Assembly (NCBI GenBank): GCA_945861615.1
Contig: CAMAVH010000021.1
Coordinates: 1 to 32,932, forward strand
Direction of reading: 5' to 3'
From: Rhizobium sp. Q54
GTDB taxonomy: Bacteria > Pseudomonadota > Alphaproteobacteria > SMXQ01
Length of the DNA stretch: 32,932 nt
Shown here: piece by piece, positions 8,051 to 26,117 of the stretch
Numbering within the stretch: position 1 is the first letter of the stretch
Layout: every line of letters starts with the position of its first letter
Notes under the pieces: model-generated
The model's input: the letters and a program-made list of their open reading frames with translations, nothing else
Told to the model about the DNA's origin: nothing
Database searches by the model: none
Position numbers and translations under genes: made by a program

Positions 8051-9040
8051 ATGAACAGCAAATTGCTCGCCCTGATCGGCGGGGCCGCGCTCATGGCGAC
8101 GGCCACGGCAGCCTCGGCCCAGAGCTACAATATGACGATCGCCGGCGCGAGCCCAGGCGGCCTATGGACGCTGATCGGCACGGGCGTCGATTCGGCGGTG
8201 AAGGCCGCCTATCCCGGCTCCACGATCACCTATCAGACCTCGGGCGGCGGCATCGCGAACGTCGGCCTGCTCGACCAGAAGCGCGTCCAACTCGGCATCA
8301 TCCACGACGTCGAGTTGAAAGACGCGCAAGACGGCAAGCCGCCCTTCAAGGCGCCGATCAAGAGCATGCGTGTTCTCGCCTACATGTACGACTGGTCGCC
8401 GCAGCAGCTGATCCTGACGAAGGACTTCGCCGACAAGCACGGCATCAAGACCTTCGACGACATCATCAGCAAGAAGGCGCCAGTGCGCATGGTGCTGAAC
8501 CGCCAGGGCAACATCGCCGCCACCGTCGGCACCGAGCTGTTCAACGCCGCCGGCGTCAACGTGAAGGACATCGAGAAGTGGGGTGGCCGCGTGATTTATG
8601 CCGCGTCCGCTGAACAGGCCGATCTCCTGAAGGACCGCCGCGTCGATATGATCAACAACTCGCTGTTCGTGCGCCATGCCTCGTTGCTCGAAGTCGGCCA
8701 GGCCCTCCCAGTCGTTATGCTGCCGATCTCCAAAGGCATCATCGACAAAGTCTCGCAAGAACTCGGCACGATTCCCTACGTCGTGAAGGGCGGGTCCTAC
8801 CCCTATCAGCCGCAGGACGTGACGACCGTGAGCTTCGGGGCCGCCGTCGTCACCAACAGCGCGATGTCCGATCAAGAGGCCTATAACCTGACCAAGGCTT
8901 TGGTCGAACGGATCGACAAAATCCAAGGCGTCCATAGCTCGATGAAGGCGCTGACGCCTGAATTGATGGCGAGCCTCAAAGCCTCGCCCTATCACCCCGG
9001 CGCGATCAAGCTTTACAAAGAAAAAGGCTTGATGAAGTAA
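8051..9040 (+). CDS. TAXI-family TRAP transporter periplasmic solute-binding protein
   Basis: A 329-residue protein. Residues 1-23 form a Sec signal peptide ending in A-S-A before Q24. The mature part opens with the TAXI-family pattern (MTIAGASPGGLW, then a GGGIANV segment) and keeps the two-lobe layout of TAXI receptors. These bind organic acids in the periplasm and deliver them to a sodium-driven TRAP permease. The permease gene follows 46 bp downstream, so the two form an operon. Because catabolic genes begin immediately after, the ligand is probably an aromatic or related carboxylate; this is inference, and the ligand cannot be read from sequence. The start is supported by GGGAG upstream of the ATG. 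Confidence 0.9.
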   Translation: MNSKLLALIGGAALMATATAASAQSYNMTIAGASPGGLWTLIGTGVDSAVKAAYPGSTITYQTSGGGIANVGLLDQKRVQLGIIHDVELKDAQDGKPPFKAPIKSMRVLAYMYDWSPQQLILTKDFADKHGIKTFDDIISKKAPVRMVLNRQGNIAATVGTELFNAAGVNVKDIEKWGGRVIYAASAEQADLLKDRRVDMINNSLFVRHASLLEVGQALPVVMLPISKGIIDKVSQELGTIPYVVKGGSYPYQPQDVTTVSFGAAVVTNSAMSDQEAYNLTKALVERIDKIQGVHSSMKALTPELMASLKASPYHPGAIKLYKEKGLMK

Positions 9041-9086
9041 ACCCGCTCCGCTTGCAACTCACGCAACAGTCGTAAGAGTACGTCCG

Positions 9087-11030
9087 ATGATGCCAGACGA
9101 AATAACCGCCACCTCTAAAGGCGCGCAAAAGATCAACTGGACCGATCTTTTCTTCGCCACGGGGCCGCGGCGCAATCCCGCCGGCATCATCGGACGCCTC
9201 ATTCCGCCCTACGCCTTCGCCATCGCCTGCTGGGTGCTGTACGCCACGGTGATCGCCTACGTTGATCTGCTGTTCCTGACCATCACCTTCCTGGCGATGA
9301 TTTTGGTGCTGATCTTCCTGACGATCGGCGCGCACGGCAAGGCAGACCCCGCGAGCATACCCTGGTTCGACATGATCGCCGCCGCCGTCTCGGTCGGCGT
9401 GGGCCTGCATTTCGCCTTCAACAGCGAAACCATCATGACCCGCATCGTCGGCTTCAGCGAGTTGACGACTTGGAACCTCGTGTTCGGTTCGGCGCTGTTT
9501 TTGCTGACTTTAGAGGCGACCCGCCGCACCGTCGGCTTCGGCATCACCGCCATCGTACTGATCTTCGTCGCTTACAACTTGCTCGGCCACCTCATCCCCG
9601 GCGCTTTGGGCCATGGCTATATCGACTATCCCTACTTCCTCGACACCATGGCTTTCGCGACGGACGGCATTTTCGGCGTGCCTGTCCGCGTAACCGCGAC
9701 TTACGCCTTCCTCTTCGTAATGTTCGGCACGTTCCTGCAACGTGCCGGGGGCGGCGATTTCTTCTTCAACGTCGCCGCGGCGTTCAGCGGCCGCAGCCCG
9801 GGCGGCCCCGCCAAGATCGCCGTGGTGTCTTCGGGCCTTTACGGCACGATTTCCGGAAGTCCGACCTCCGACGTCGTCACCACCGGCTCGGTGACTATCC
9901 CGATGATGAAACGCCTCGGCTACAGCGGCTCGCTCGCTGGCGCCGTCGAGGTCGCCGCCTCGACCGGCGGCAGCATCCTGCCGCCGGTGATGGGCTCCGC
10001 CGCCTTCATCATGGCCGAGTTCACCGGCATCGAATATCGCGACATCGCCATAGCCGCGATCATCCCTGCGCTGCTGTATTATTTCTGCATCTACACCCAA
10101 GTCCATCTCCGCTCGGTCAATCTCGGCCTGCTCGGCATCGACAAGTCTCAGATTCCGAAATTGAGCGCGACGATGCGCCAAGGCGGCATCTTCATCGTGC
10201 CGCTCGCGGCGCTGACCGGCGCGTTGATTCTCGGCTATTCGCCGAACTACGTCGCCGTTTACGGCGCCATCGCCGTCCTCGCCGTCGCGGTCCTGAAAAA
10301 GGAGACGCGCATCGGCCTGAAGGGCATCTACGAAGCGATGGGCGAAACCACCATGCGCATCGTGCCGGTCGCCGGCGCCTGCGCCGCAGCCGGCCTCGTC
10401 ATCGGCGGCATCACCATGACCGGGTTGGCGCAGAAATTCTCGGCCTTGATTTTCCTGGTGACCAATCAAGACCTTTTCCTATCGCTGCTGGTGGCCGCGG
10501 CGCTCACCATCCTGCTCGGCATGGGCATGCCGACGCCGAGCGCCTACATCCTCGCCGCCGTGCTCGTCGGGCCGATGTTGCAGGAACTGGGCGTCGACAA
10601 ACTGGCAGGCCATCTCTTCCTGCTCTATTTCGCCGTGCTGTCGGCGATGACGCCGCCCATAGCGGTGGCGGCCTATGCGGCGGCAGCCTTGGCAGACGCC
10701 AATCCGCTATCGATCGCGGCGCAAGCCGTGAGGTTGTCGCTCAGCGCCTTCCTGGTGCCCTTCGCCTTCGTCTATGGCCAGGAACTGCTGCTCGTCGGCG
10801 AGGTCTGGAGCATCATTCTCGCGGTCACGACGGCGATCATCGGCGTCTGGCTCGTCTCGCTCGCCACCGAAGGCTACAAGAAGCTGCTGAATCGCCCGGC
10901 CCGCCTACTGATCGCCGCCGCCGGTTGCTGCTTCATCGTGCCCTCTGTCGAAGCCGTGTTCCTCGGAGTGGCCTTGGCTGCGGCCGGTGGGGCCCTGGGC
11001 TATGTCGCCATGAAGCGCGCCAAAGCCTAA
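9087..11030 (+). CDS. TRAP transporter permease, fused 4TM/12TM (DctQM type)
   Basis: A 647-residue, very hydrophobic membrane protein. The N-terminal third corresponds to the small four-helix DctQ-like unit and the remainder to the large DctM-like unit, the fusion usual for TAXI systems. Family motifs include GSPTSDVVTTGSVTIP near residue 257 and GMGMPTPSAYI near 478. It moves the ligand delivered by the upstream TAXI receptor across the inner membrane using an ion gradient. An ATG-ATG pair begins the frame with only a weak Shine-Dalgarno, so the start could be one codon later. No terminator is obvious after it, and the promoter of the oxygenase genes follows. Confidence 0.93.
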   Translation: MMPDEITATSKGAQKINWTDLFFATGPRRNPAGIIGRLIPPYAFAIACWVLYATVIAYVDLLFLTITFLAMILVLIFLTIGAHGKADPASIPWFDMIAAAVSVGVGLHFAFNSETIMTRIVGFSELTTWNLVFGSALFLLTLEATRRTVGFGITAIVLIFVAYNLLGHLIPGALGHGYIDYPYFLDTMAFATDGIFGVPVRVTATYAFLFVMFGTFLQRAGGGDFFFNVAAAFSGRSPGGPAKIAVVSSGLYGTISGSPTSDVVTTGSVTIPMMKRLGYSGSLAGAVEVAASTGGSILPPVMGSAAFIMAEFTGIEYRDIAIAAIIPALLYYFCIYTQVHLRSVNLGLLGIDKSQIPKLSATMRQGGIFIVPLAALTGALILGYSPNYVAVYGAIAVLAVAVLKKETRIGLKGIYEAMGETTMRIVPVAGACAAAGLVIGGITMTGLAQKFSALIFLVTNQDLFLSLLVAAALTILLGMGMPTPSAYILAAVLVGPMLQELGVDKLAGHLFLLYFAVLSAMTPPIAVAAYAAAALADANPLSIAAQAVRLSLSAFLVPFAFVYGQELLLVGEVWSIILAVTTAIIGVWLVSLATEGYKKLLNRPARLLIAAAGCCFIVPSVEAVFLGVALAAAGGALGYVAMKRAKA

Positions 11031-11308: not shown

Positions 11309-12562
11309 ATGGCGACCGCCGTACAGACCGACAATCTGCTCAATCTCAAATGGCCGAAAGAAGGCCCCTCGCGGGTGCCTTATTGGGTCTATTCCTCGCC
11401 GGAGATCTACAAGCGCGAGCAGGAGCTGGTGTTCGGCGGCGCGAGCTACAATTACATCGGCCTCGAATGCGAGATCCCCAATTCCGGCGACTTCCGCCAG
11501 ACCAAGGTCGGCGACAAGCCGGTGATCTTCATGCGCGACGAGGACGGCCAGGTGCATGTCGTCGTCAATCGCTGCGCCCATCGCGGCGTGCAGTTCTGTT
11601 ACGACATGCACGGCACGGGCAAGACCGAGTTCATCTGCCCCTACCATCAGTGGACCTACAATCTGAAGGGCGAGACCACCGCCGTGCCCTTCCGCCGCGG
11701 CTTGCAGAAGATGGGCGGCATGCCCACCGACTTCGACCTGAAGGCCAACGGCCTGCAGAAGCTGAAGGTGGCGACGCGCCACGGCGTGATCTTCGCCAGC
11801 TTCGACCACAGCATGCCGTCGTTCGAGGACTATATCGGCCCCAAGATGGTGGGCTGGTTCGACCGCGTGTTCAGCGGCCGGCCGCTCAAGGTGCTGGGCT
11901 ATCAGCGCCAGCGCATCCGCTGCAATTGGAAGCTGGTGTTCGAGAATATCAAAGACCCCTACCACGCCTCGCTGCTGCATGTGTTCCTCGTCTCCTTCAG
12001 CCTGTTCCGCGCCGACAATCCGTCCAAGGTACAGATGGACGAAAGCCTCGGCTTGCATTCGGTGCTGGTCTCGCAGCGCGGCGAGAAGAAGGCCGACGAC
12101 ACGACCGCCGACATCCGTCAGAACCAGGCGAGCTTCACCCTGGCCAATCCGCTGATGCTGCAGCCGGAGAAGGAATTCCCCGGCGAAGCGACGGTGGTGA
12201 TGCAGACCATTTGGCCGAACCTGATGGTGCAGCAGCAGTCCAACACGCTGGCCATGCGTCAGATCCATCTCGTCGGCCCGGAGGAATTCGAGCTGCATTG
12301 GACCTACTTCGGCTTCGCCGACGAATCCGAGGAGATGACGCAGAAGCGCCTGCGCCAGGCCAACCTGATGGGCCCGGCCGGCTACGTCTCGGCCGACGAT
12401 TCGGAAGTGATGGAAGCGATCCAGGCGGGCATCTCGAAATATGCCGCGGAAGACGCGGTGGTCGAGATGGGCGGCCGCGGCGTCGAGGACACCGACCATA
12501 TGGTGACTGAAACGGCGATTCGCGCCTTTTACGACGGCTATCGCAAAGTGATGGGGCTTTAA
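11309..12562 (+). CDS. Rieske ring-hydroxylating oxygenase alpha subunit, salicylate 5-hydroxylase-like
   Basis: A 417-residue oxygenase subunit. The Rieske [2Fe-2S] ligands are C89-x-H91 and C110-x2-H113. The mononuclear iron site is H219 and H224 (D216-x2-H219-x4-H224), with D363 or D364 as the third ligand, and D216 is the electron-bridging aspartate. The pattern (WPKEGPSRVPYW near the start, SADDSEV and DTDHMVTET near the end) closely follows the NagG/salicylate 5-hydroxylase and anthranilate dioxygenase group, which act on ortho-substituted benzoates. The ATG at 11309 is preferred to one 72 bp upstream because AGGGA stands just before it and the family N-terminus starts here. The beta subunit follows after two bases. 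Ferredoxin and reductase are encoded at 18949 and 21614. The exact substrate is unknown. Confidence 0.9.
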   Translation: MATAVQTDNLLNLKWPKEGPSRVPYWVYSSPEIYKREQELVFGGASYNYIGLECEIPNSGDFRQTKVGDKPVIFMRDEDGQVHVVVNRCAHRGVQFCYDMHGTGKTEFICPYHQWTYNLKGETTAVPFRRGLQKMGGMPTDFDLKANGLQKLKVATRHGVIFASFDHSMPSFEDYIGPKMVGWFDRVFSGRPLKVLGYQRQRIRCNWKLVFENIKDPYHASLLHVFLVSFSLFRADNPSKVQMDESLGLHSVLVSQRGEKKADDTTADIRQNQASFTLANPLMLQPEKEFPGEATVVMQTIWPNLMVQQQSNTLAMRQIHLVGPEEFELHWTYFGFADESEEMTQKRLRQANLMGPAGYVSADDSEVMEAIQAGISKYAAEDAVVEMGGRGVEDTDHMVTETAIRAFYDGYRKVMGL

Positions 12563-12564
12563 GC

Positions 12565-13065
12565 ATGACCACGACCACCAAGCTCCGCCCCGCCGACCTC
12601 GCCGCATTACGCGCCGAGATCGAGGACTTCAACACCGCCTACGCCGACTGCCTGGACGACGGCGATCTGGCCGACTGGAAGAGCTTCTTCACCGAAGACT
12701 GCATCTACAAGGTGCTGCCGCGCGAAAATTACGAGTTGAAGCTGCCTCTCGCCGTGATCTTCGCCGAAGGCCATGGCGGCCTGACCGACCGCATCGTCGG
12801 CGTGACCAAGACGACGGTCTACCGCAAGCGCTACCTGCGCCATTACATCACCAACACGCGCATTCGCAGCGTCGACGGCGACAGTGTGCGCGCCGAGGCC
12901 AACTACCAGGTGCTGGAGACTTTGCCCGAGGAATATACCAAGATCCTCAACGCCGGCCGCTACATCGATCATTTCATCCGTCGTGGCGGCACGCTGAAGC
13001 TGAAAGAGCGCCTCTGCGTCTATGATTCGGAAATGGTGCCGGCAACCATCGTTTATCCGCTTTGA
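12565..13065 (+). CDS. Ring-hydroxylating oxygenase beta subunit, NagH-like
   Basis: A 166-residue small subunit of the SnoaL/NTF2-like fold found as the structural partner of Rieske oxygenase alpha subunits. It keeps features of the salicylate 5-hydroxylase small subunit group, such as the LPRENYELKLPL region (residues 51-62), ILNAGRYID in the middle and RLCVYDSEM close to the C-terminus. It has no cofactor ligands. It starts two bases after the alpha stop codon and is followed directly by a strong terminator, so alpha and beta form a two-gene transcription unit. Confidence 0.9.
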   Translation: MTTTTKLRPADLAALRAEIEDFNTAYADCLDDGDLADWKSFFTEDCIYKVLPRENYELKLPLAVIFAEGHGGLTDRIVGVTKTTVYRKRYLRHYITNTRIRSVDGDSVRAEANYQVLETLPEEYTKILNAGRYIDHFIRRGGTLKLKERLCVYDSEMVPATIVYPL

Positions 13066-14630: not shown

Positions 14631-15560
14631 TTAGGCCGCTTTCTTCTTCGCTTTCTTGCCGTTGGTCAGGCCGGCGCGCTTCATGACGCCGTCGAGACGG
14701 GCGGCGACCTCGGCGGTGGCCGACATCATCGGCAGACGATGCTCGTTCTTATCGAGAACGCCCATCTTCATCATGATGTACTTAATCGCGATCGGATTGG
14801 TGTCGTAGAACACCGCCTCGTTCAGCTCGGCCAGCTCGAAGTGCAGCTTGCGCGCCTTCTCGATGTTGCCGGCGACCGTCTGCTCGTAGAGGTCTGCGAC
14901 CTTGCGCGGCGCGACGTTGCCGACGGCGTTCATCAGGCCGCAAGCGCCGACGCAAAGCATCGGGAAGCTGAGGTCTTCGAGGCCGACGAACACGCGGAAA
15001 TCGAAGCCGAAGCGGTCGAGCGCGTGCGTGACGAAGCCGAGATCGTTGACGGCATGCTTGATGCCGACGAGGTTCTCGGTGCGGTTCATGATCTGCTCGA
15101 CGGTGTCGAGGGTCACGCCGACGGCGGTGCGGCCGGGGATGTGATAGATCATGAGCGGCAGGTCGATCTTCTTGCCGATCTGCACGTAATACTCGACCAG
15201 GCCGCGCTGCGGCGGGCGGACATAGTACGGCGTGACGACGAGCAGCGAATCGACGCCAGCCTTCTCGGCGGCGTAGCTCAGATCCATCGTCTCGGCTTCC
15301 GACTGCGAGCCGGTGGCCGCGACGACGGGGACGCGCTTGGCGGTGACGTCGACGGCGATCTTGTAGAGCTGCTTGCGCTCGTCGCTGGTCAGCGTCGACG
15401 GCTCGCCGGTCGTGCCGGTGATCAGCACGCCGTGGCTGCCGTTGGCGATCATGTAATCGACGACTTCCTCGAACTTGGCATAATCCACCTTGCCGTTCTT
15501 GAACGGGGTGACGGCGGGCGGATAGGAGCCGCGCAGGAAGTTCTTCTTCAGTTTAATCAC
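14631..15560 (-). CDS. DapA/NAL-family class I aldolase or hydratase-aldolase
   Basis: A 309-residue TIM-barrel enzyme of the dihydrodipicolinate synthase/N-acetylneuraminate lyase superfamily. Visible are the carboxylate-binding GTTGE (49-53), Tyr139 with Arg144 (YHIPGR), and the Schiff-base Lys168 in VGIKHA. The lysine-rich C-terminal tail is odd. Family members condense or cleave pyruvate-containing compounds. As the last gene of a catabolic operon it is more likely to act in degradation than in lysine synthesis, for instance splitting a 4-hydroxy-2-oxo acid to pyruvate plus an aldehyde, as hydratase-aldolases of aromatic pathways do (inference). It starts with GTG, one base after the bicupin stop, so the two are translationally coupled. 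A strong terminator follows. Confidence 0.88.
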   Translation of the reverse strand: MIKLKKNFLRGSYPPAVTPFKNGKVDYAKFEEVVDYMIANGSHGVLITGTTGEPSTLTSDERKQLYKIAVDVTAKRVPVVAATGSQSEAETMDLSYAAEKAGVDSLLVVTPYYVRPPQRGLVEYYVQIGKKIDLPLMIYHIPGRTAVGVTLDTVEQIMNRTENLVGIKHAVNDLGFVTHALDRFGFDFRVFVGLEDLSFPMLCVGACGLMNAVGNVAPRKVADLYEQTVAGNIEKARKLHFELAELNEAVFYDTNPIAIKYIMMKMGVLDKNEHRLPMMSATAEVAARLDGVMKRAGLTNGKKAKKKAA

Positions 15561-15561
15561 G

Positions 15562-16701
15562 TTAGGCCACCTTGGTGCGGTTGGTTTCGAAACCGGCGTG
15601 CGAGCCGAGCAGCGAGATCGGACCCTTGAGGTCTTCCTGCCACAGCAGCGCGTCGGTGTTGATGCAGAACGGCATGTCCTGAATGGTCATCTCGTACACG
15701 GGGCCGACGTCGGTCGCGTGGTTGTGGATCGCCCAGCCCGGCGCCGAGAACATCAGGTCGCCGGCCTTCCAATCAAGCCGCTGGCCCTGCACCACCGAAT
15801 GGCCTTCGCCGCCGAAGTAGTAGTTGATGGCGGCCGAGGCGTGACGATGCGGACGATCGACGATGCCCTGCGGACGGATCGTGATGGCCGAGAAGAAGTT
15901 CGGGTTGGTACCGTTGGTGCGACCCGTCGCCGGATCCCACAGCAGGTACAGGCGGCGACCCTTGTAGGACGCGCCGAGGTCGGCGAGCTTGTCGAGCTCG
16001 GTCTTGACCTTTTTCCACGGCCACTGATGCGGCGTGATCGAGATCGGCTCGGGATTGATGAGCTTCTCATAAGGCATCATCCAGGCGCCGTCTTCGGTGA
16101 GCTGGAAAGTACCGTAGGGGCTCTGCGGCAATTCCTTGCCCTTGGCCTCGTACTCGGCCATCGCGTCGTGAACGTCGGTGGTATGCTCCGGCGGGTTTTC
16201 GTCGAGCCAATGAATCTTCAGGCGCTCGAGCAGCGGCGCGTTGTCGTAGCGCAGGCGGACCTGAATTTCCTTGGTGTCGTTGATGTACTCATGCACCGCC
16301 ATGGACGGCGTGGTGAGGACGTCGTACTGGCCGAACTCGAAACGCTTGTCGCCGACGATCATCGAGCCGGCGCCCTTGATCGGGAAGTTGACGATCGACG
16401 AGTTGCTGCGGACGCGCTGCGTGCGCTCACCCGGCAGAAGGACGTCGAGCGACAGGCCGATGCCCGGCGCGAAGCTCTTGAGGCCTTCTTCGCACTGCGG
16501 ATGCACGAACTGCGTGCGGCGCACACCATTGTTCGGGCGCGGCAGGCTGGCCAGACGGTCGACTTCGGCGTCGATCTCTTCCTTGCGGATGATGAGCGGC
16601 GCCCAGAGGTCCATCGAGTGGTCCTTCCAGGTGTGGACGTCGGGCGTTTGACGGCCCGAGGCATCCACCATCTTAAATTTCTGTTCAAAATCGAACGGCA
16701 T
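15562..16701 (-). CDS. Gentisate 1,2-dioxygenase-like bicupin
   Basis: A 379-residue bicupin related to gentisate/salicylate/1-hydroxy-2-naphthoate dioxygenases, which cleave an aromatic ring next to the carboxylate with Fe(II) and O2. The C-terminal cupin has the metal motif H285-x-H287 (RPHRHAS) and H326 or H328 (AIHNH). The equivalent stretch of the N-terminal cupin is QRVRSN (95-100), without histidines. In canonical gentisate dioxygenases it is the N-terminal cupin that carries the iron ligands, so the active site appears exchanged. Start is supported by GGAGGA before the ATG. It lies 26 bp after the OCD-family gene and one base before the aldolase. Ring cleavage of the oxygenase product is the likely role; the substrate is unproven. 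Confidence 0.85.
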   Translation of the reverse strand: MPFDFEQKFKMVDASGRQTPDVHTWKDHSMDLWAPLIIRKEEIDAEVDRLASLPRPNNGVRRTQFVHPQCEEGLKSFAPGIGLSLDVLLPGERTQRVRSNSSIVNFPIKGAGSMIVGDKRFEFGQYDVLTTPSMAVHEYINDTKEIQVRLRYDNAPLLERLKIHWLDENPPEHTTDVHDAMAEYEAKGKELPQSPYGTFQLTEDGAWMMPYEKLINPEPISITPHQWPWKKVKTELDKLADLGASYKGRRLYLLWDPATGRTNGTNPNFFSAITIRPQGIVDRPHRHASAAINYYFGGEGHSVVQGQRLDWKAGDLMFSAPGWAIHNHATDVGPVYEMTIQDMPFCINTDALLWQEDLKGPISLLGSHAGFETNRTKVA

Positions 16702-18329: not shown

Positions 18330-18919
18330 GCCGCCTGGCCCTTCTCGAAGATCGATTTCACCGGCGGCTCGAGCTCGAGCACGTTGCGGAAAATCGCATG
18401 CTGCACGCAGCGGCCGATCGACAGCAGGATGCCGGTCGCTGTCTTGGGGCCGACGGCTTCGACGACATCGTCGAACAGCTTGCCGCAATCCTGGCCGCGG
18501 CGATAAATCGCGGCGATAGCGAATTTCTGGATCTTGCGCTCGTCCGGCGACAGCGCCTCGGCCTCGTCGGCCTTGAGCGCGTTCACAGCGGCGATCCAGT
18601 CTCGGCCGTAGCCGAGCTTGTCGGCGAGGTTCTCGTGCTGATTGCGCTCGTAGGTGTTGTCCATCACGCCGGCGACCGTGAGCGCGATGAGCTCGACGAC
18701 CTTCATCGGCATCTCGTCCTTCAGGTCTTCGGTGATGTTGCAGAACGACAGCATGGATTTGGGCACGTTGGCGCCGATCTGCCAGATCTCGCCGCAATAG
18801 CCGAGGCGCTCGACTTTCGGCCGCAGCGACTCTTTTAAGCCCGGCTCGAAGTCTTCGAACGGAATGCGCGGAATCTTCGCGCCGCCCTTCTTCGTCTGAT
18901 TGGTCGCCTTGTCGCTCAT
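18326..18919 (-). CDS. Carboxymuconolactone decarboxylase-like protein, paralogue 2
   Basis: A 197-residue relative of the gene that follows it, with the same N-terminal signature and the same PVKSIF ending. It retains E91 and H95 in TYERNQHENL, the position where CMD/AhpD superfamily proteins often carry active-site Glu and His. It also has several cysteines (C42, C60, C145, C171) but no CxxC. The ATG at 18919 is preferred over a longer open frame because the similarity to the paralogue begins here and the ferredoxin gene ends 29 bp upstream. Together with its partner it probably forms a mixed complex acting on the ring-cleavage product (inference). Confidence 0.75.
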   Translation of the reverse strand: MSDKATNQTKKGGAKIPRIPFEDFEPGLKESLRPKVERLGYCGEIWQIGANVPKSMLSFCNITEDLKDEMPMKVVELIALTVAGVMDNTYERNQHENLADKLGYGRDWIAAVNALKADEAEALSPDERKIQKFAIAAIYRRGQDCGKLFDDVVEAVGPKTATGILLSIGRCVQHAIFRNVLELEPPVKSIFEKGQAA

Positions 18920-18948: not shown

Positions 18949-19260
18949 TTACGGCGTCTCGATCACGATGTCGTCGCCGTCGATGCGCAGCGGATAGGTC
19001 TTGAGATCGACGAACACCGGCGCGCCCTGCGCCTTGCCGGTGGCCAGCTCGAAGCGCCCCGCGTGCAGCGGGCATTCGACGCAGCCGTCCTCGACATAGC
19101 CGTCGATCAGCGACACCCAGGCGTGGGTGCAGATCGCATCGGTCGCGTAAAATTTGCCTTCGTTATTCCACACGGCGATTTCGAGATCGCCGATCTTGAA
19201 CTGCTTGCCGGACTCCGCCTCGATCTCGCCGACCTTCGCCACGCGGTGCTCTTGGGCCAT
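18949..19260 (-). CDS. Rieske-type [2Fe-2S] ferredoxin
   Basis: A 103-residue soluble Rieske ferredoxin. The cluster ligands are C44-x-H46 and C63-x2-H66 (CTHAWVSL, CPLHAGRF). Such ferredoxins carry electrons from an FAD reductase to the Rieske centre of a ring-hydroxylating oxygenase. The start at 19260 is chosen because AGGAGAG stands about 9 nt before it; a longer frame adds 16 arginine-rich residues with no family match. It opens the minus-strand operon that ends with the DapA-type aldolase. The matching oxygenase (11309) and reductase (21614) lie in separate units, so the three-component enzyme is encoded in three places. Confidence 0.93.
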   Translation of the reverse strand: MAQEHRVAKVGEIEAESGKQFKIGDLEIAVWNNEGKFYATDAICTHAWVSLIDGYVEDGCVECPLHAGRFELATGKAQGAPVFVDLKTYPLRIDGDDIVIETP

Positions 19261-19626: not shown

Positions 19627-21456
19627 TCAGCCCTTCTTGCGGCTCGCCGTGGTCATGTTGATTTCGGCATAGCCCGGATCGATACGAACATCGATGACAT
19701 AGGGCTTGCCGGCCTGGACCGCCTTCACGCCGCGCGCGAGCGCCGCCGGCAGATCCTTCAGCTCCCAGATCGGGCCTTCCGAATCGATGCCTTGGGCGCG
19801 GGCAATCCCGGCCAGATCGACCGCCGGGTCGTCCAGGCGCTGGCCGATCCATTTGTTCTCGACCGGACGCCCGCGCACGATGGCCATGCGCTCCTGGTGG
19901 GTCTCGTCGTTGTAGTAGGAACGGTTGTTGGCGACGACCATCAGCAGCGGAATCTTGAAGCGCGCCGCGGTCCACAGGGCGTTGCTGCCCATCATGAAGT
20001 CGCCATCGCCGACGATGGCGACCGGGATGCGGCCGGAACCCATCAAGGCGAGTGCGATGCCAATGGCGATGCCGGGGCCGGAGCCGACACCGCCGCCGCC
20101 GTCATGGCCGTAATAGTCCATCGGGCCGGTGAACTTGCTGGCGAAGCCCGGCCAGCCGAGCGACACGCGGGCGTAGGACACCGGCTTGCCGGCGAGCGCC
20201 TCGGTGACGCAGCCGGCCATCTCGCGCAGGCTCATGCCGTCCTTGGCGCCCTTCTTGGGCGGCGCGGGCGGCTTGGGCAGCTTGACCTTCATCTTCGGCG
20301 TCTTGTGGCGGGCGCCCTTGGTCTTCTTGTCGATGGCCGCGAGCAGCGGGCCGGTGACGGCGTCGGGCGGCGACAGCATGAACAGGTCGGCGGCCGGCAG
20401 GGCCTGGTAGTCCATGCTCCAGCCGCGGTGAATATACATGTCCACCGAGCAGTTGATGACCTTCGCCTTGACGTTGGGCGAGCCCGTGCATTGCGTGAGG
20501 AAGCCGGCGAGATCGAGCCAATCGTAGGCCAGGATGACGTCGGCGGCCTCGATCACGGCCTTGGTCGCGTCGGCCGGACGGAAGCGGCCCTCGACGACAT
20601 GCAGCGGATGCTCAGTCGGGAAGGCCGAGGAGTTGTGCATGTCAGTGAGCACGACAGCGCCGATGGCTTCCGCCAGCTCGACGCGCTTGTCCCAATCTTC
20701 CTGGCTGCGCGAGACGCGGCCGCAGAGGAACACCGGTTTCTTTGCCTTGACCAGCAGATCGGCGGCGATGGCGACGCTGTCGGCCGGCGGGGCCGGCGGC
20801 GGGGCCGGCTCGTAACGCGACATGTCGGGGAATTCGACCTCGCCCGTCAGCTTGCCTTCCTGCAGGCCGGCATCGAGGTTGATGTAGGTCGGGCCGTTCG
20901 GCGCGGTCATGGTGATCTGGCGCGCGCGCGCGATGGCTTCGATGGTGGCCGGCACGGAGGCCGGCTGGTCGTCCCACTTGGTGAAATCGCGGATCAGCGC
21001 GCCCTGATCGCGCGCGGTGTGAATCCAGTCGATCCACGGACGGCGCTGGTCGGCATCGACCGGGCCGGTTGCGCCGAAGATGATCATCGGCACACGGTCG
21101 CACCAGGCGTTGAAGATCGCCATGCTGGCATGCATCAGGCCGACATTGCTGTGGACGCTGACGAACATCGGCTTCTCGGTGACCTTGGCATAGCCGTGGG
21201 CGATGGCGACCGAGTGTTCCTCATGCATGCAGATGACCATCTGCGGATTGGTGTTGCCGAGGTAATTGACGATCGAGTCGTGGAAGCCGCGATAGCTCGC
21301 GCCCGGCACCAGGCTCATGTACTTGAGATCGAGACGCTGCGCGAATTCGGCGATGGCGTCGGAATTCCAGCCCATCCGGCGATTGCCGCCGAGATTCGCC
21401 GGACGGTCGGCGTGCGCCAGCTTGCCGGCGGCAGATTTCTTGTTGCGGGTCGCCAT
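19627..21456 (-). CDS. Thiamine diphosphate-dependent enzyme (acetolactate synthase/2-oxoacid decarboxylase superfamily)
   Basis: A 609-residue enzyme with the three-domain ThDP fold. The N-terminal PYR domain carries the cofactor-activating glutamate in MHEEHSVAIAHGYA (E79 or E80). The C-terminal PP domain has the Mg-ThDP motif G483-D-G to N510-N511. A proline/lysine-rich stretch (about 381-405) links the middle and PP domains. The family includes acetolactate synthase, benzoylformate and other 2-oxoacid decarboxylases, and glyoxylate carboligase; the sequence does not decide between them. There is no small regulatory subunit gene nearby, which argues against acetolactate synthase in branched-chain synthesis. 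A GGAGG sequence ten bases upstream supports the start. Its place inside the aromatic locus suggests decarboxylation or cleavage of a 2-oxo acid intermediate (inference). Confidence 0.87.
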   Translation of the reverse strand: MATRNKKSAAGKLAHADRPANLGGNRRMGWNSDAIAEFAQRLDLKYMSLVPGASYRGFHDSIVNYLGNTNPQMVICMHEEHSVAIAHGYAKVTEKPMFVSVHSNVGLMHASMAIFNAWCDRVPMIIFGATGPVDADQRRPWIDWIHTARDQGALIRDFTKWDDQPASVPATIEAIARARQITMTAPNGPTYINLDAGLQEGKLTGEVEFPDMSRYEPAPPPAPPADSVAIAADLLVKAKKPVFLCGRVSRSQEDWDKRVELAEAIGAVVLTDMHNSSAFPTEHPLHVVEGRFRPADATKAVIEAADVILAYDWLDLAGFLTQCTGSPNVKAKVINCSVDMYIHRGWSMDYQALPAADLFMLSPPDAVTGPLLAAIDKKTKGARHKTPKMKVKLPKPPAPPKKGAKDGMSLREMAGCVTEALAGKPVSYARVSLGWPGFASKFTGPMDYYGHDGGGGVGSGPGIAIGIALALMGSGRIPVAIVGDGDFMMGSNALWTAARFKIPLLMVVANNRSYYNDETHQERMAIVRGRPVENKWIGQRLDDPAVDLAGIARAQGIDSEGPIWELKDLPAALARGVKAVQAGKPYVIDVRIDPGYAEINMTTASRKKG

Positions 21457-21613: not shown

Positions 21614-22861
21614 TCAGGCCTTCGCGAGATCCATCATCTTGACTGTTTCATTGGCCAGATCGGCCTCCGGCAGCGATTTCCCGGCCTGCACGATCTGCTT
21701 CGCGAAACGCGCTTCGCGGCCCATGTTGAAGAGATTGATCGCGACCACCTTGCCGGCGTGCAAATAGAACAGCAGGAACTTGCCAGAATCGGGATTGCCG
21801 CGCGTCACCACCTTGTCCCAGCCCGCCGGAACGCCGACGATCTGCAGGTTCACGTCATACTGGTCCGACCAGAACCAGGGCGTGTCCACGAAGGGTTTGG
21901 GCGCGTCGCCCTTCAATTCGGCGACCATGTTTGCCGCAACCGCCATGCCGCCATTCTGCGCGTTGGCCCAGGTTTCGAGGCGCGCCTGAATGCCGTGCAC
22001 GTGGACCGGGATATTGGCGACGTCGCCGGCGGCATAGACGTCGGCCGCGCTGGTATGGCCAAACTCGTCGACCGTGATGCCGTTGCTGGCGGCGATGCCC
22101 GCGTCGGTCGCCAGTTCGACGTTCGGAATGATGCCGATGCCGACCACGACGATGTCCGCCGGCAGCACCGTGCCGTCGCCGAGGCGTACGCCGGTGACCT
22201 TGCTGTCCCCCTCGATGCCGTCGATCACCGCCTGGGTGATGACATTCGCGCCGTTCTTGCGATGCAGCGCGACATACCAGTCGCCGACCCATTTGTCGCA
22301 GACGCGGCCGAGCAAAGTCGGCTGCATCTCGAGAATCGTCACCTCGCAGCCGAGCTTCTTGGCGCTCGCCGCCGTCTCCAGGCCGATGAAGCCGCCGCCG
22401 ATCACCACCACCTTGGCGCCGGCCACCAGTTTCGGCTTCAGCGACAGGCTGTCGTCGATGGTGCGGATGTAATGCACACCGTCGAGCTCGGCGCCTTTGG
22501 TCGGCAGATGGCGCACACGCCCGCCGGTGACGATCAGCAGTTTCTTGTAAATCAGCTCGCCGCCGTGCTTGCCCGACAACGTCAGCTTATGGCCGGCGAC
22601 GTCGAGCTTATCGGCGCGTGTGCCGGTCCACAGATCGATCTTGAACTCGGCATATTGCTCGAGCGGGCCGAGATAAGTCTTCTCGATCGGGGTCGCGCCG
22701 GTCAGCACGTCCTTGGATAGCGGCGGGCGCTCGTAAGGCGGCTCGGCCTCGTCGCCGATCAGCACGATGCGTCCCTCGAAAGGGGCGTGGCGCGCGGCCT
22801 GCGCCGCGCGGCCGCCCGCCTGTCCCGCACCAACAATGACGATATCCGCTTGTTCAGCCAC
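21614..22861 (-). CDS. FAD-dependent ferredoxin reductase (BphA4/rubredoxin reductase type)
   Basis: A 415-residue flavoprotein. An FAD motif G11-A-G-Q-A-G16 opens the protein, the NAD motif is VVIGGGFIGLE (152-162), and the second FAD contact is SAADVYAAGD (271-280). This is the pattern of NADH reductases that feed Rieske ferredoxins in ring-hydroxylating oxygenases. The frame extends to a TTG at 22888, but the GTG at 22861 is preferred: GGGGA lies seven bases before it and the FAD motif then starts at the usual distance. It would reduce the ferredoxin at 18949. It is alone in its unit, with the ThDP-enzyme promoter region right after its stop codon. Confidence 0.92.
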   Translation of the reverse strand: MAEQADIVIVGAGQAGGRAAQAARHAPFEGRIVLIGDEAEPPYERPPLSKDVLTGATPIEKTYLGPLEQYAEFKIDLWTGTRADKLDVAGHKLTLSGKHGGELIYKKLLIVTGGRVRHLPTKGAELDGVHYIRTIDDSLSLKPKLVAGAKVVVIGGGFIGLETAASAKKLGCEVTILEMQPTLLGRVCDKWVGDWYVALHRKNGANVITQAVIDGIEGDSKVTGVRLGDGTVLPADIVVVGIGIIPNVELATDAGIAASNGITVDEFGHTSAADVYAAGDVANIPVHVHGIQARLETWANAQNGGMAVAANMVAELKGDAPKPFVDTPWFWSDQYDVNLQIVGVPAGWDKVVTRGNPDSGKFLLFYLHAGKVVAINLFNMGREARFAKQIVQAGKSLPEADLANETVKMMDLAKA

Positions 22862-23023
22862 GTTCAGTCCCCATGCACTCAAAGTCAAAATGGTTGCGAG
22901 TGGTTAGCATGCCGGACGCGATCCCGCCATGGCTCTCGCTTCATCCGGCACGCGCCGATTATCCTGGTGCGCGCGGCATATCCCTGACCGGTTTGGGGGT
23001 ATATCGGCCGTAAGGCTTGACCG

Positions 23024-23037
23024 CCGCCATATGGCGG
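23024..23037. promoter_or_regulatory. 14-bp perfect palindrome between divergent genes
   Basis: CCGCCATATGGCGG is its own reverse complement. It lies between the ferredoxin reductase (minus) and the TauE/SafE gene (plus), 59 bp before the latter. It could be an operator for either gene; a chance palindrome is also possible in GC-rich DNA. Confidence 0.3.
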
Positions 23038-23095
23038 GAGTACCCCGTTTCTCCCCCCCTGCGCCGCCCGGCGCATTTTTGACAGCATCGCGCCC

Positions 23096-23863
23096 ATGTC
23101 CCTCACAATCTCCGGCACCGAAATCGGCACCATCGCCATCCTGGTCTGCTTCGGCGCCTTGCTCGCCGGCGGACTGGTCAAGGGCATGATCGGCGTCGGC
23201 CTGCCCATGCTGGCCCTGCCGCTGCTCTCGACCGCCGTGTCGCTGCGCGACACCATCGCCATCCTTTACGTCTCGGTGCTCGTCACCAACATCTGGCAGG
23301 CTTTCCGCGGCGGCTATTTCGTCCAGGCCTTCAAGCGCTTCTGGCCGATGATGCTGGCGGTGATCGTCGGCGCCTGGTTCGGCAGCAAGACGCTGGTCGC
23401 CATCGACCCCGTGTGGCTGACCGGCATCGTCGGCGCCACCGTGGCTTTCTTCTCCTGCGTGAACTTGTTCAATCCCAAGCTCAACGTGCCGGCACGCCAC
23501 GAAACCTGGATGAGCGTGCTGATCGGCCTGACCGGCGGCTTTTTCGGCGGGCTCACCCTGTTCATCGGCCCGGCGATCATCATGTTCCTGGTCGCGCTGC
23601 AGGTAAAAAAGGAAGAGTTCATCGGCACCATCGGGCTGGTCTACCTGCTCGGCGTGGTCCCGACCGGCATCTTCTACGTGATCGACGGCACCTTCCGCGC
23701 CGAACACATCATCCCGGCGCTGCTCGCCGCCATCCCGGTCATTCTCGGCATGTTCGTCGGCCAATATATCCGCCAGCATGTGAACGAAGAGGTCTTCCGC
23801 AAGGTGCTGCTCATCGCCCTGGTGCTGATCGGTCTCAACATGATCCGCACGGCGGTCTTTTAG
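23096..23863 (+). CDS. TauE/SafE-family membrane permease (first copy)
   Basis: A 255-residue membrane protein with about eight hydrophobic helices and the repeated glycine-rich helices of the TauE/SafE family (GGLVKGMIGVGLPMLALPLL near the start, GLTGGFFGG in the middle). Family members export sulfite, sulfoacetate or other small sulfur-containing or organic anions. It is divergent from the ferredoxin reductase and upstream of the MarR-UbiD pair, so it may export a product of the aromatic pathway; sulfite would be expected if the substrate were an aromatic sulfonate. Shine-Dalgarno is weak, and the start was set by the first ATG before helix 1. Distinct in sequence from the second copy at 26176. 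Confidence 0.87.
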   Translation: MSLTISGTEIGTIAILVCFGALLAGGLVKGMIGVGLPMLALPLLSTAVSLRDTIAILYVSVLVTNIWQAFRGGYFVQAFKRFWPMMLAVIVGAWFGSKTLVAIDPVWLTGIVGATVAFFSCVNLFNPKLNVPARHETWMSVLIGLTGGFFGGLTLFIGPAIIMFLVALQVKKEEFIGTIGLVYLLGVVPTGIFYVIDGTFRAEHIIPALLAAIPVILGMFVGQYIRQHVNEEVFRKVLLIALVLIGLNMIRTAVF

Positions 23864-23964
23864 GCCATCTTTCCAAAGCCTTTGGGGCTTATCCACAAGG
23901 CCCTGCCTAAAAATTAGCCCAGCCACTCCCCCATTGCTGCGGCGCAATATTTGCAGAATCAATT

Positions 23965-23978
23965 GTTGCGTTTGCAAC
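23965..23978. promoter_or_regulatory. Candidate MarR autoregulatory operator
   Basis: GTTGC (23965-23969) and GCAAC (23974-23978) form a perfect inverted repeat with a 4-bp spacer, about 70 bp upstream of the marR-type gene and in its likely promoter. It resembles TTGCG-N4-CGCAA-type sites only in part. MarR proteins commonly repress their own genes. Confidence 0.35.
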
Positions 23979-24048: not shown

Positions 24049-24570
24049 ATGGCCGACCCCGCCCGCATCGCCAACAATAACGAAGACGCGCCGATCGACG
24101 AATCGGAGCGCACGATTCCGTTCGTGATGCACGAAATCCTCAACCTGGTCGATGGTTCCGTGAAAAAGCGCGCCAAGGCTTACGGCCTGACGCTGGAAGG
24201 CGTGCGCGTGCTGTTTCGCCTGTTGCCGCGCGACAGCGCCTCGGTGAAAGATCTGGCGCGGCTGACCGGCGCGGAAATCTCGACGCTGTCTCGTCTTCTC
24301 GACCGCATGGGCGACAAAGGCCTGATCCGCCGCCAGCGCGATTCGGAAGACGCCCGCTCGGTGCAGGTGAGCCTCACGCCCAAAGGCCGCAAGCTCGCCC
24401 TGCAGAACCGGCCGATTTATTACAAAGATTACGAACGCGTCCTGCTCGCCGGTATGAGCGCGCGGGACTCCCTGCAATTCCGGGATGCGCTGCTGCGCAT
24501 GCTCAGGAATCTTCGCGACCACGACCTGACCGAACTCGATCCGCCGCAGCGCGCGGCGGCGGGCCGGTAG
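24049..24570 (+). CDS. MarR-family transcriptional regulator
   Basis: A 173-residue winged-helix regulator. The helix-turn-helix spans roughly 64-92 (SVKDLARLTGAEISTLSRLL), and the wing carries the family signature D-A-R-S-V with LTPKG (101-113). MarR proteins bind palindromes as dimers and release them on binding aromatic acids or their CoA esters. The ATG at 24049 is used; a TTG 15 bp earlier would also be in frame. It precedes the UbiD-type gene by 65 bp in the same direction and is the only regulator among the aromatic genes, so it is the best candidate to bind the operators near 11126 and 19392 (inference). Confidence 0.9.
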   Translation: MADPARIANNNEDAPIDESERTIPFVMHEILNLVDGSVKKRAKAYGLTLEGVRVLFRLLPRDSASVKDLARLTGAEISTLSRLLDRMGDKGLIRRQRDSEDARSVQVSLTPKGRKLALQNRPIYYKDYERVLLAGMSARDSLQFRDALLRMLRNLRDHDLTELDPPQRAAAGR

Positions 24571-24635
24571 GCCGACCGCGAGGCCCCGTACGACGACCCG
24601 TATAAACGCGTAAAGCCCCCATCAGGGAGAGACTA

Positions 24636-26117
24636 ATGGCTGATGACAATCTGAAACATCAATTCGCCTACCAGGATCTGCGCGGCTGGATTGCCGAAGC
24701 GGACAAGCTCGGCGAAATGAAATACATCAACGGTCTGAACTGGGAACGTGAGATCGGCATGGTGACGGAGATGCTCCATCACACCGATCCGGCGCCCTGC
24801 GGCCTGTTCGACGAAGTGCCCGGCATTAAGAAGGGCTTCCGCGTTCTGACGAACTTCTTCGGCGCCCAGCGCGCGAACATGACGCTCGGCTTTCCGACCG
24901 GCTTGAACCGTTTGGATCTGAGCGAGGCCTTCCTGAAGGTCTACCGCAATCCGGAAAACAAGCCGATCCCGCACAAGATCGTCGAGACCGGCCCGATTTT
25001 CGAAAACATCCTGACCGGCGACGACGTCGACCTGAACATCTTCCCGACGCCGAAGTGGCACGAGGAAGACGGCGGGCGCTATCTCGGCACCGGCTCGTAC
25101 AACGTGACGATGGATCCCGATGAGAAGTGGGTCAACTGCGGCACCTACCGCTGCATGATCCAGACGAAGAACAAGATCGGCTTCTACATTTCGCCGGGCA
25201 AGCATGGCCGCATTCACCGCGATAAGTACGCGGAACGTGGCGAGAAGATGCCCGCCCTGATCGTCGTCGGCGGTAGCCCGATGATGTTCCTGCTCTCGTC
25301 GCAGGAAGTGCCCTACGGCATCAGCGAGTACGACATCCTCGGCGGCCTCTACAAGAAGCCGATCGAATGCGTGAAGGGCAAGATCACCGGTCTGCCGTTC
25401 CCCAAGGATGCCGAAATCGTCCTCGAAGGCTGGATCGATCCGAACGAGTTGATGGACGAAGGCCCGTTCGGCGAATGGACCGGCTACTACGCCTCCGACA
25501 TGCGTCCGGAGCCGGTGCTGCACGTCGAAGCGATCTATCATCGCAACGACCCGATCATCCTCGGCTGCCCTCCGCAGCGTCCGCCGGATGAGTTGGCCCG
25601 TTACCGCGCCGTCGCCCGCTCGGCTCTGCTCAAGCAGTCGATCCAGGCCGCCGGCGTGCCGGACGTCACCAACGTCTGGGCGCATGAAGTCGGTACCGCG
25701 CGTATGCTCGTCGCCGTCTCGATCAAGCAGCGCTACCCGGGCCATGCCCGTCAGGTTGGCCATATCGCCTGTCAGTGCCACGTCGGCGCTTACGCGGGCA
25801 AGTACGTCTTCGTCGTCGACGACGACATCGACGTGTCGAACCTCGAGCAGCTGATGTGGGCGGTCGTCACCCGGTCCGATCCGGCGACCTCGATCGATAT
25901 CGTGCACAACGCCTGGTCCACGCCGCTCGATCCGCGCATCACGCCGGAACAGCGCGAGCGTGGCGACTTCACGAACAGCCGCGCCATCATCGACGCGTGC
26001 CGTCCGTTCCACTGGCGCGACCAGTTCCCGAAGGTCAACATGCCGTCGGAAGGTCAGGCCAAGGAAGCCCGCCAGAAGTTCGGCCATCTGCTCGAAGGCT
26101 GGGGCAAGAGCGTCTAA
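24636..26117 (+). CDS. UbiD-family prenylated-FMN (de)carboxylase
   Basis: A 493-residue UbiD-superfamily enzyme, which uses prenylated FMN to decarboxylate, or carboxylate, aromatic and alpha,beta-unsaturated acids. The catalytic Glu-Arg-Glu set is intact: Arg172 in GTYRCMI, and Glu275 and Glu280 in E-G-P-F-G-E followed by WTGYY. Numbering is almost the same as Fdc1 (R173, E277, E282). Catabolic members act on hydroxybenzoates, phthalates and similar acids. The UbiX prenyltransferase needed for the cofactor is not in this window and must be encoded elsewhere. AGGGAGAG upstream supports the start. It follows the MarR gene and ends at a strong terminator. Housekeeping ubiquinone biosynthesis is possible, but the context favours catabolism. 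Confidence 0.92.
   Translation: MADDNLKHQFAYQDLRGWIAEADKLGEMKYINGLNWEREIGMVTEMLHHTDPAPCGLFDEVPGIKKGFRVLTNFFGAQRANMTLGFPTGLNRLDLSEAFLKVYRNPENKPIPHKIVETGPIFENILTGDDVDLNIFPTPKWHEEDGGRYLGTGSYNVTMDPDEKWVNCGTYRCMIQTKNKIGFYISPGKHGRIHRDKYAERGEKMPALIVVGGSPMMFLLSSQEVPYGISEYDILGGLYKKPIECVKGKITGLPFPKDAEIVLEGWIDPNELMDEGPFGEWTGYYASDMRPEPVLHVEAIYHRNDPIILGCPPQRPPDELARYRAVARSALLKQSIQAAGVPDVTNVWAHEVGTARMLVAVSIKQRYPGHARQVGHIACQCHVGAYAGKYVFVVDDDIDVSNLEQLMWAVVTRSDPATSIDIVHNAWSTPLDPRITPEQRERGDFTNSRAIIDACRPFHWRDQFPKVNMPSEGQAKEARQKFGHLLEGWGKSV

Follow-up and report, generated by a model that had tools for sequence, protein, structure and literature searches.

In the Pseudaminobacter bicupin dioxygenase SDO, Arg127 is essential and is needed for deprotonation of the salicylate hydroxyl, and Asp174 contacts and recognises the 5-hydroxyl of gentisate. 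In the PhdI/PhdJ and NahE steps of PAH degradation, a DHDPS-fold hydratase-aldolase releases pyruvate after cleavage next to the carboxyl group. Known reactions of the OCD family concern C=N bonds and amino acids, and imine reductases belong to it. TauE proteins transport several anions. The mab genes are thought to encode a deaminase and a hydrolase that work towards fumarylpyruvate (PMC9584955). In Sphingomonas wittichii RW1, a gentisate-dioxygenase-like gene and an HpaI-type aldolase are reported to be induced when the strain grows on salicylate, and the authors noted that salicylate and homoprotocatechuate had 'no known links' (PMC3425912).

Here we analyse a window of 32,932 nucleotides of Rhizobium sp. 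Q54 (contig CAMAVH010000021.1), a block of which was originally predicted to encode an aromatic-acid pathway that starts like salicylate-to-gentisate degradation and lacks its lower half. We find a salicylate/gentisate-type bicupin whose companions in several phyla, instead of the usual enzymes of the gentisate pathway, are a reductase, an AhpD-fold protein and an aldolase that releases pyruvate; this suggests a widespread route.

Gene content of the block

Families were assigned to the open reading frames (ORFs) of the window with Pfam and NCBIfam profiles, and those listed in the original prediction were all confirmed. The forward strand opens with a TAXI-type TRAP solute-binding protein (8051..9040; PF16868, 149.5 bits), syntenic in loci L028, L032 and L037, and a fused TRAP DctM permease (9087..11030; PF06808, 265.8 bits). 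Next come the alpha (about 11309..12562) and beta (12565..13065; PF00866; AndAd 123 bits) subunits of a NagG/AndAc-like Rieske oxygenase. The closest solved structure to the alpha subunit is the salicylate 5-hydroxylase NagG (7c8z, 461 bits, versus 333 for terephthalate dioxygenase), and the subunit scores 445 bits against the NCBIfam AndAc model, whose cut-off is 750. With a Rieske ferredoxin (18949..19260; PF00355, 67.6 bits) and a ferredoxin reductase (about 21614..22888; HcaD 341 bits, AndAa 336 bits), both on the reverse strand, gene content suggests a three-component layout of the salicylate 5-hydroxylase type.

The reverse strand also carries, in order of position, a DHDPS-fold aldolase, probably a 4-hydroxy-2-oxo-acid (hydratase-)aldolase (14631..15560), the predicted ring-cleaving bicupin (15562..16701), a probable reductase of the OCD/mu-crystallin family (16728..17735; NAD(P)-dependent; PF02423, 163 bits) and two CMD-like proteins, B (17760..18329) and A (18326..18919), whose ORFs overlap by ATGA. 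Profile matches indicate an accessory ThDP enzyme resembling PRK08327 and benzoylformate decarboxylase (19627..21456, reverse strand). Back on the forward strand lie a TauE/SafE-family transporter inside the block (23096..23863; PF01925, 106 bits), syntenic in genomes of the family, a MarR-family regulator (24049..24570; PF01047) and a UbiD-family decarboxylase, probably an upper-pathway accessory (24636..26117; PF01977, 222 bits).

The TauE-type transporter was absent from the original list, as was an EAL response-regulator gene (13114-14364) between oxygenase and aldolase, which is missing from that place in the relative L032. Antisense ORFs at 22904-23977, 14739-15629 and 4433-6526 have no family match and were set aside because they look like shadows of genes on the other strand. 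In relatives, too, the block is bordered by sulfite reductase and COX15 genes, which look like ordinary neighbours; since, in addition, TauE proteins carry several anions, a sulfonated aromatic substrate, to which the TauE and sulfite-reductase genes might point, is not favoured.

Conservation and linkage

The whole block except the ThDP gene is found in the same order in two relatives in the host's family. The genome-contig scan used the bicupin alone as its query, so linkage is seen from that gene's side. In a set of 80 loci, drawn from alpha-, beta- and gammaproteobacteria, actinobacteria and acidobacteria, an OCD-type gene sits no more than 500 bp from the bicupin in 45 and a DapA-type aldolase gene does so in 49. 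The linked core comprises bicupin, OCD-type enzyme, CMD-like protein and aldolase, and recurs in Alpha-, Beta- and Gammaproteobacteria, Actinomycetes and Acidobacteria. Because order is kept within the family and the core across phyla, chance is a very poor explanation for the grouping. The gene set is thus conserved and linked, as the original prediction asked to be checked, and is not the scatter of unlinked homologues that would have spoken against it.

Around this core the other genes vary. About 13 loci have a copy of the oxygenase alpha subunit, 55-67% identical, in linkage with the bicupin, and MarR or LysR genes recur next to the core. The ThDP gene is missing from the family's other clusters; homologues at 54-56% adjoin the core in L093, L104 and L106. 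A UbiD gene is found no farther than 4 kb from the bicupin in 18/85 loci, and UbiD, a PhtC-like class II aldolase or a third family in 32/85. This third family matches no Pfam entry firmly, and for that reason a decarboxylase was given no weight as a requirement of the pathway. A full-text literature search, whose coverage lay outside subscription journals, came upon no account of the OCD-bicupin-CMD-aldolase cassette.

The bicupin dioxygenase

The best Foldseek match of the bicupin model is SDO (2phd; TM 0.69/0.75), with 3bu7 and 2d40 as further best matches. The iron ligands His285, His287 and His326 lie in the C-terminal cupin and, with Arg249, are invariant in 40 sequences; a bicupin fold with a three-histidine Fe(II) site and a carboxylate-binding arginine places the protein among class III ring-cleavage enzymes at the level of the fold. 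The N-terminal cupin has lost its metal ligands. Profile matches had suggested a reversed domain order, which we rejected: the model aligns over its full length and collinearly with SDO, so the working metal site has switched cupin with the domain order unchanged. Equivalents of Arg83, His162 and Asp174 of SDO are kept, that of Asp174 in more than 90% of members, while Arg127 is replaced by Asn293 in all 40 members and Gln108 by Thr274.

Against the gentisate 1,2-dioxygenase model TIGR02272 the bicupin scores 63 bits (cut-off 442). Its best NCBIfam match is MabB, a 5-aminosalicylate 1,2-dioxygenase, which all 40 members also match, at 75 bits for the window protein, far from the equivalog cut-off of 650. 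By its score, C-terminal iron site and Arg-to-Asn exchange it is no ordinary gentisate dioxygenase, and its iron site is intact but altered. The predicted pocket differs from that of SDO and gentisate dioxygenases (GDOs) at Arg127, yet sequence cannot name the substrate, and the step from 'different enzymes' to 'a substituted salicylate' in the original prediction does not follow. Sphingomonas sp. Root710 has four paralogues, Paraburkholderia largidicola has the homologue BEI72756.1, and the host genome encodes a separate GDO-like bicupin.

Enzymes acting after ring cleavage

The window aldolase matches TIGR02313 (2,4-dihydroxyhept-2-ene-1,7-dioate aldolase) best, at 298 bits versus 266 for dapA; this is below the cut-off of 396.7 set for TIGR02313, the DapA-fold subclass of HpaI-type 4-hydroxy-2-oxoheptanedioate aldolases, as are the 272-276 bits of the homologues in L071 and L100. 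The Schiff-base Lys168 and its partner Tyr139, expected of DHDPS/NAL-fold pyruvate aldolases (PF00701, 242 bits), are invariant in 41 homologues. A role as the lysine-pathway DapA was rejected, the housekeeping dapA being found elsewhere (at C1, 342 bits), and the aldolase is missing from the two genomes of the family without a window-type cluster.

Sphingomonads (among them Novosphingobium album, L112), a Hyphomonadaceae MAG and Cupriavidus N-1 lack the DapA-type aldolase and have HpaH and HpaI in its place, at scores above the NCBIfam equivalog cut-offs (HpaH 355 and 446 bits, cut-off 351.5; HpaI 386, 389 and 402 bits, cut-off 368.8). The Cupriavidus arrangement is unlike the sphingomonad one and looks independent. 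In Sphingomonas Root710 a single operon reads CMD-OCD-bicupin-HpaH-HpaI-ALDH, and ALDHs of this kind have SSADH as their best model, below its cut-off. Within 4 kb of the bicupin, a DapA-type aldolase is found in 52/85 loci, HpaH/HpaI in 10/85 and both in none of the 85 (hypergeometric 3e-5, uncorrected for ancestry). Neither aldolase type is nearby in 12 of the 45 OCD-linked loci, several of them near contig ends.

In the OCD-type enzyme, the catalytic aspartate of the AlaDH/OCD enzymes (Asp219 in 1omo) is Ile227 in 36/36 sequences, and the lysine and RT(G/A) motif are kept; the imine reductases aligned with it also lack this aspartate. Both CMD-like proteins fall below the Pfam CMD cut-off (B: PF02627, 21.6 bits, cut-off 23). 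The AF2 model of A (pLDDT 91.5) has the CMD/AhpD fold by Foldseek (3lvy, 6e8l and 6ohi, TM 0.73-0.83; 3lvy at TM 0.77). Protein B has no cysteine pair, and the alignment of CMD-like proteins contains no conserved cysteines, showing NxYExxQHE where AhpD has its CxxC redox pair.

Proposed pathway and alternatives

Given the gene content, the conserved linkage, the replacement of the aldolase by HpaH and HpaI elsewhere and the intact but altered iron site, we see an even chance that the block encodes the complete catabolism of an aromatic acid brought in from outside, with bicupin cleavage, OCD reduction and a (hydratase-)aldolase leading to pyruvate and a C4 semialdehyde. The acid would be taken up by the TRAP transporter, possibly by the TauE protein too, and UbiD and/or the three-component NagGH-like oxygenase would turn it into an ortho-hydroxybenzoate-type acid, which the bicupin would cut between the carboxyl-bearing and hydroxyl-bearing carbons to a C7 product of the 2-oxo-dienedioate type. 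NAD(P)H-dependent reduction of this product by the OCD-family enzyme would follow, the CMD-like proteins would probably shift a double bond or proton, and the DapA-type aldolase, as a hydratase-aldolase or after hydration, would release pyruvate and the C4 semialdehyde. With 4-hydroxy-2-oxoheptanedioate as the hydrated intermediate, the latter would be succinic semialdehyde. Substrate, reductive step, CMD role and end product are what we infer. Salicylate plus O2 equals C7H6O5, two hydrogens short of the HpaH substrate, C7H8O5; a single two-electron reduction must therefore take place, and the cluster has a conserved NAD(P) reductase for it.

The original view that other enzymes handle the cleavage product is very probable, given the conserved, linked OCD, CMD-like and aldolase set. 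The lower half is not lacking, as had been claimed: these proteins constitute it. More tentatively, somewhat short of an even chance, we propose a widespread, undescribed central ortho-hydroxybenzoate route in which the bicupin would cleave without a para-hydroxyl, the OCD enzyme reduce the dienoate and a hydratase/aldolase yield pyruvate and succinic semialdehyde. It would link salicylate-type cleavage with the lower branch of homoprotocatechuate degradation, and different enzymes could serve its last steps interchangeably (DapA-type aldolase, HpaH plus HpaI, perhaps a ThDP enzyme). Against the pathway outlined first, dienoate reduction would be new for the OCD family, the window aldolase falls below its model's cut-off, and the OCD-linked loci with neither aldolase type nearby are left over.

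The kept Asp174 equivalent, associated with 5-hydroxyl recognition, and an alpha subunit closest to salicylate 5-hydroxylase also speak against that pathway, as they fit a 5-hydroxylated substrate that needs no hydratase. They favour a reductive gentisate-type route, unlikely overall though appreciable, in which NagGH-like 5-hydroxylation and the bicupin would give a (substituted) maleylpyruvate, the OCD enzyme would reduce its C4 ketone to a 4-hydroxy-2-oxo acid and the aldolase would yield pyruvate and a fumaric-semialdehyde-type product. Every core enzyme is employed without a separate hydratase; however, the hydratase HpaH alongside HpaI at aldolase-replaced loci is left unexplained, and Arg127 of SDO, which serves salicylate-hydroxyl deprotonation, is asparagine in all 40 members.

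We regard as improbable a conventional gentisate pathway, whose maleylpyruvate would be processed by enzymes encoded elsewhere. Maleylpyruvate isomerase and fumarylpyruvate hydrolase, whose absence had been noted originally, were indeed not seen among the window ORFs scanned with Pfam and NCBIfam, which by itself is weak evidence because elsewhere the host has eight FAH-fold (FAA-hydrolase) genes and a homologue of MaiA that passes its cut-off (270 bits against 171). However, the MaiA gene adjoins thiamine-biosynthesis-like rather than catabolic genes, and among 85 loci it is matched only at L043 and L044, beyond UbiD; one FAH-fold protein is matched in 3/85 loci, best as DhyDRhm/HpaG-like and below cut-off. 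The bicupin's low gentisate dioxygenase score and the host's separate GDO-like bicupin also argue against this pathway. Equally doubtful is a variant of the mab pathway in which the OCD enzyme would act on the imine or enamine of a cleaved amino-salicylate or amino-hydroxybenzoate: the MabB matches, the imine reductases of the OCD family and the AndAc-like alpha subunit favour it, but the MabB score is far too low, HpaH and HpaI substrates are nitrogen-free and the mab route as published is believed to run through a deaminase and a hydrolase rather than an aldolase (PMC9584955).

The proposed pathway matters for annotation, as such bicupin genes risk the label 'gentisate dioxygenase-like' and placement in the gentisate pathway. 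If it is true, annotations in many soil, marine and wastewater bacteria name the wrong products (fumarate and pyruvate instead of pyruvate and a C4 semialdehyde), and OCD-family and CMD-like proteins acquire new roles. It could also explain the salicylate induction in RW1 (PMC3425912), provided that the RW1 gene Swit_3086 belongs to the window bicupin family.

Comparison with known systems

The bicupin shares with SDO and GDOs its fold, three-histidine iron site and Arg83/His162/Asp174 equivalents, and differs in its low identity (about 15%), in binding iron in the C-terminal instead of the N-terminal cupin and at Asn293 and Thr274. The mab cluster (3-aminobenzoate via 5-aminosalicylate, Comamonas QT12) likewise uses a cupin dioxygenase on an ortho-hydroxybenzoate and supplies the nearest NCBIfam model, but has its own lower part of deaminase and hydrolase. 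NagGH and AndAcAd, the closest relatives of the window oxygenase, share its three-component layout, whereas the window oxygenase does not reach the equivalog cut-off of either AndAc or AndAd and is linked to another lower pathway. As in PhdI/PhdJ and NahE, direct cleavage beside the carboxyl would be followed by a pyruvate-releasing DHDPS-fold hydratase-aldolase, but OCD and CMD-like steps would intervene, and no polycyclic substrate is known for the window cluster. With the homoprotocatechuate lower pathway (HpaG-HpaH-HpaI) the route shares HpaH and HpaI in its sphingomonad and Cupriavidus versions, and the window aldolase is nearest to the DapA-fold counterpart of HpaI. An HpaE/HpaF-type step was not identified in the bicupin cassette; an extradiol dioxygenase opens the ring in the homoprotocatechuate pathway, whereas here a bicupin would do so, with additional OCD and CMD-like proteins.

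A conserved core with exchangeable upper parts

The bicupin (15562-16701, minus strand) belongs to a core that recurs across bacteria. Whether the gene set is found elsewhere, a point that the original prediction left to a genome search, is answered by 80 loci from one bicupin scan of species-representative genomes: the bicupin lies within 500 bp of an OCD gene (16728-17735 in the window) in 45/80 and of a DapA-type aldolase (14631-15560) in 49/80, and within 2.5 kb of a CMD-like gene (17760-18329 and 18326-18919) in 31/80. Sources include Rhodospirillaceae-type MAGs, Sphingomonadales, Paraburkholderia, Gammaproteobacteria, a Mycobacterium, Actinomycetes and Acidobacteria MAGs, with some doubtful MAG labels (among them L077, 'Klebsiella pneumoniae', and L105, Bordetella parapertussis, both carrying the cassette). 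Upper-pathway genes are variable, a NagG-like alpha subunit occurring in 14 loci and UbiD in 22; in Paraburkholderia the upper part includes a VanA-type Rieske protein and a PDR/VanB reductase. The core thus looks like a module with exchangeable upper parts. Sphingomonas sp. Root710 (L127, L128, L114) has four bicupin paralogues, three within CMD-OCD-bicupin groups, which suggests several related aromatic substrates. In five operons (L099, L115, L117, L119, L120), the stretch from the ferredoxin or CMD gene to the core recurrently holds a TauD-family dioxygenase and a 330-aa protein that no Pfam family firmly matches.

All gene classes originally assigned to 8051-26117 are present in Pfam and NCBIfam scans. 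Two further genes lie in the block, one for a TauE-type transporter at 23096-23863 and one for an EAL-domain response regulator at 13114-14364, the latter separating the oxygenase beta subunit from the aldolase. The oxygenase is complete as a three-component system (alpha and beta subunits, Rieske ferredoxin, HcaD/AndAa-type reductase). Its alpha subunit has salicylate 5-hydroxylase NagG as nearest solved relative (461 bits; terephthalate dioxygenase, 333 bits) and anthranilate dioxygenase AndAc as nearest NCBIfam model (445 bits against a 750-bit cut-off). The label 'NagGH-like' is therefore fair, and leaves the substrate unfixed. Downstream, one block (26176-28840) looks like sulfide/persulfide handling, comprising a TauE-type transporter, a metallo-beta-lactamase-fold protein and a rhodanese whose membrane part is YgaP-like; a NikR-type regulator (30749-31216) and a BLUF blue-light sensor domain protein (31283-32401) end the window.

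The host assembly comprises 3.0 Mb in 191 contigs. Two family genomes, G004 and G005, carry the entire block in window order, including the flanking COX15 and sulfite reductase genes, and lack the ThDP gene (19627-21456); G004 (L032) also lacks the EAL gene, so that beta subunit and aldolase are directly adjacent. Neither a window-type bicupin cluster nor the aldolase was found in G001 and G003. A second host bicupin (G000:C3:11162-12268; L027 10166-11269), 62% identical to the first, is solitary beside purH-like genes; G001, a genus relative, retains only this type, in the same arrangement. Housekeeping dapA is a separate gene from the DapA-type aldolase.

Two aldolase types in one slot

In Sphingobium, Novosphingobium, Hephaestia and Sphingomonas loci, a Hyphomonadaceae MAG and Cupriavidus necator N-1 pBB1, the DapA-type aldolase is missing and HpaH and HpaI are present, as in the Root710 operon CMD-OCD-bicupin-HpaH-HpaI-ALDH. 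Representatives exceed the equivalog cut-offs for 2-oxo-hept-4-ene-1,7-dioate hydratase (355 and 446 bits against 351.5) and 4-hydroxy-2-oxoheptanedioate aldolase (386, 389 and 402 bits against 368.8); the best models of the associated ALDHs, under cut-off, are succinate-semialdehyde dehydrogenase. Within 4 kb, 52/85 loci have the DapA-type aldolase, 10/85 HpaH/HpaI and 0/85 both (hypergeometric 3e-5, uncorrected for common descent). Since gene order in Cupriavidus differs from that of the sphingomonads, HpaH/HpaI was likely acquired at least twice. The best model of the window aldolase, under its cut-off, is TIGR02313 (298 bits; DapA, 266 bits), a DapA-fold enzyme with an assigned HpaI reaction. 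That two unrelated aldolase families occupy one position implies that both would act on one kind of intermediate, a 4-hydroxy-2-oxo-dioate. Homologues of the ThDP gene (54-56% identical) adjoin the core in three betaproteobacterial loci, some on short contigs, where no aldolase was seen; the enzyme may offer an alternative handling of a 2-oxo acid, as a lead only.

Core enzymes

The window bicupin falls far under the cut-offs for gentisate dioxygenase (GDO; 63 of 442 bits) and 5-aminosalicylate dioxygenase (75 of 650 bits), the two models matched by all 40 family members tested, with no other strong model. Its AlphaFold2 model (pLDDT 85) best matches salicylate 1,2-dioxygenase (SDO) in a full-length alignment (TM 0.69/0.75, ~15% identity). 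We aligned the metal-binding cupins, taking residue roles from PMC10306065. The SDO iron ligands His119/121/160 correspond to His285/287/326, and Arg83, His162 and Asp174 to Arg249, His328 and Asp342; in contrast, Arg127, essential in SDO, is replaced by Asn293, invariant in 40 sequences, and Gln108 by Thr274, and the iron site lies in the C-terminal rather than the N-terminal cupin. On this match and residue map, the bicupin is an SDO/GDO relative with an altered pocket, in which the retained Asp342 leaves space for a polar substituent on position 5 of the substrate.

The CMD-like ORFs, flanked by the genes for the OCD-family enzyme and the Rieske ferredoxin, overlap by ATGA and score narrowly below the Pfam cut-off; an AlphaFold2 model of one protein (pLDDT 91.5) matches AhpD/CMD-family structures (3lvy, TM 0.77). 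Because their conserved positions include no cysteine pair and are instead NxYExxQHE, Arg170, His174 and Asn179 (numbering of the 18326-18919 product), these proteins are not expected to work as AhpD-type peroxidases. The OCD-family enzyme is a conserved NAD(P)-binding protein and keeps the substrate Lys and Arg; at the position of the AlaDH catalytic Asp, 36/36 sequences have Ile, and aligned imine-reductase branches likewise have other residues.

Proposed route

SDO converts salicylate and O2 to a C7H6O5 dienedioate. As the HpaH substrate is C7H8O5, one two-electron reduction is needed, for which the conserved OCD-family enzyme is a candidate. We propose, at about an even chance, that the bicupin would cleave the ring of an aromatic acid, the OCD-family enzyme would reduce the product with NAD(P)H, the CMD-like proteins would, as a guess, isomerise it, and hydration and aldol cleavage would follow. 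An identical gene set is required by the main rival route, which retains the analogy to salicylate 5-hydroxylase: a 5-hydroxylated acid would be cleaved to a maleylpyruvate-type product whose C4 ketone would be reduced before aldol cleavage. Asp342 and the NagG-like oxygenase favour this route, which we consider rather unlikely; HpaH favours the first route.

Maleylpyruvate isomerase and fumarylpyruvate hydrolase are absent from the window, as originally stated, but the argument from absence is weak because the host genome encodes eight FAA-hydrolase genes and, next to thiamine-biosynthesis-like genes, a MaiA homologue that exceeds its cut-off. The conserved alternative enzymes are a stronger argument: different enzymes do appear to handle the product, and the lower half, rather than lacking, exists and is conserved.

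Comparison with known systems

Searching open-access papers in full text turned up no account of the cassette. The reaction class of SDO is covered in PMC10306065. By its gene content, the cluster would join class III ring cleavage to an aldolase-type lower branch. In S. wittichii RW1 on salicylate, a GDO-like gene (Swit_3086) and an HpaI-type aldolase gene (Swit_3087) are induced, and the authors knew of no link between salicylate and homoprotocatechuate (PMC3425912); gene order at Swit_3086 is unlike that of the operons found here.
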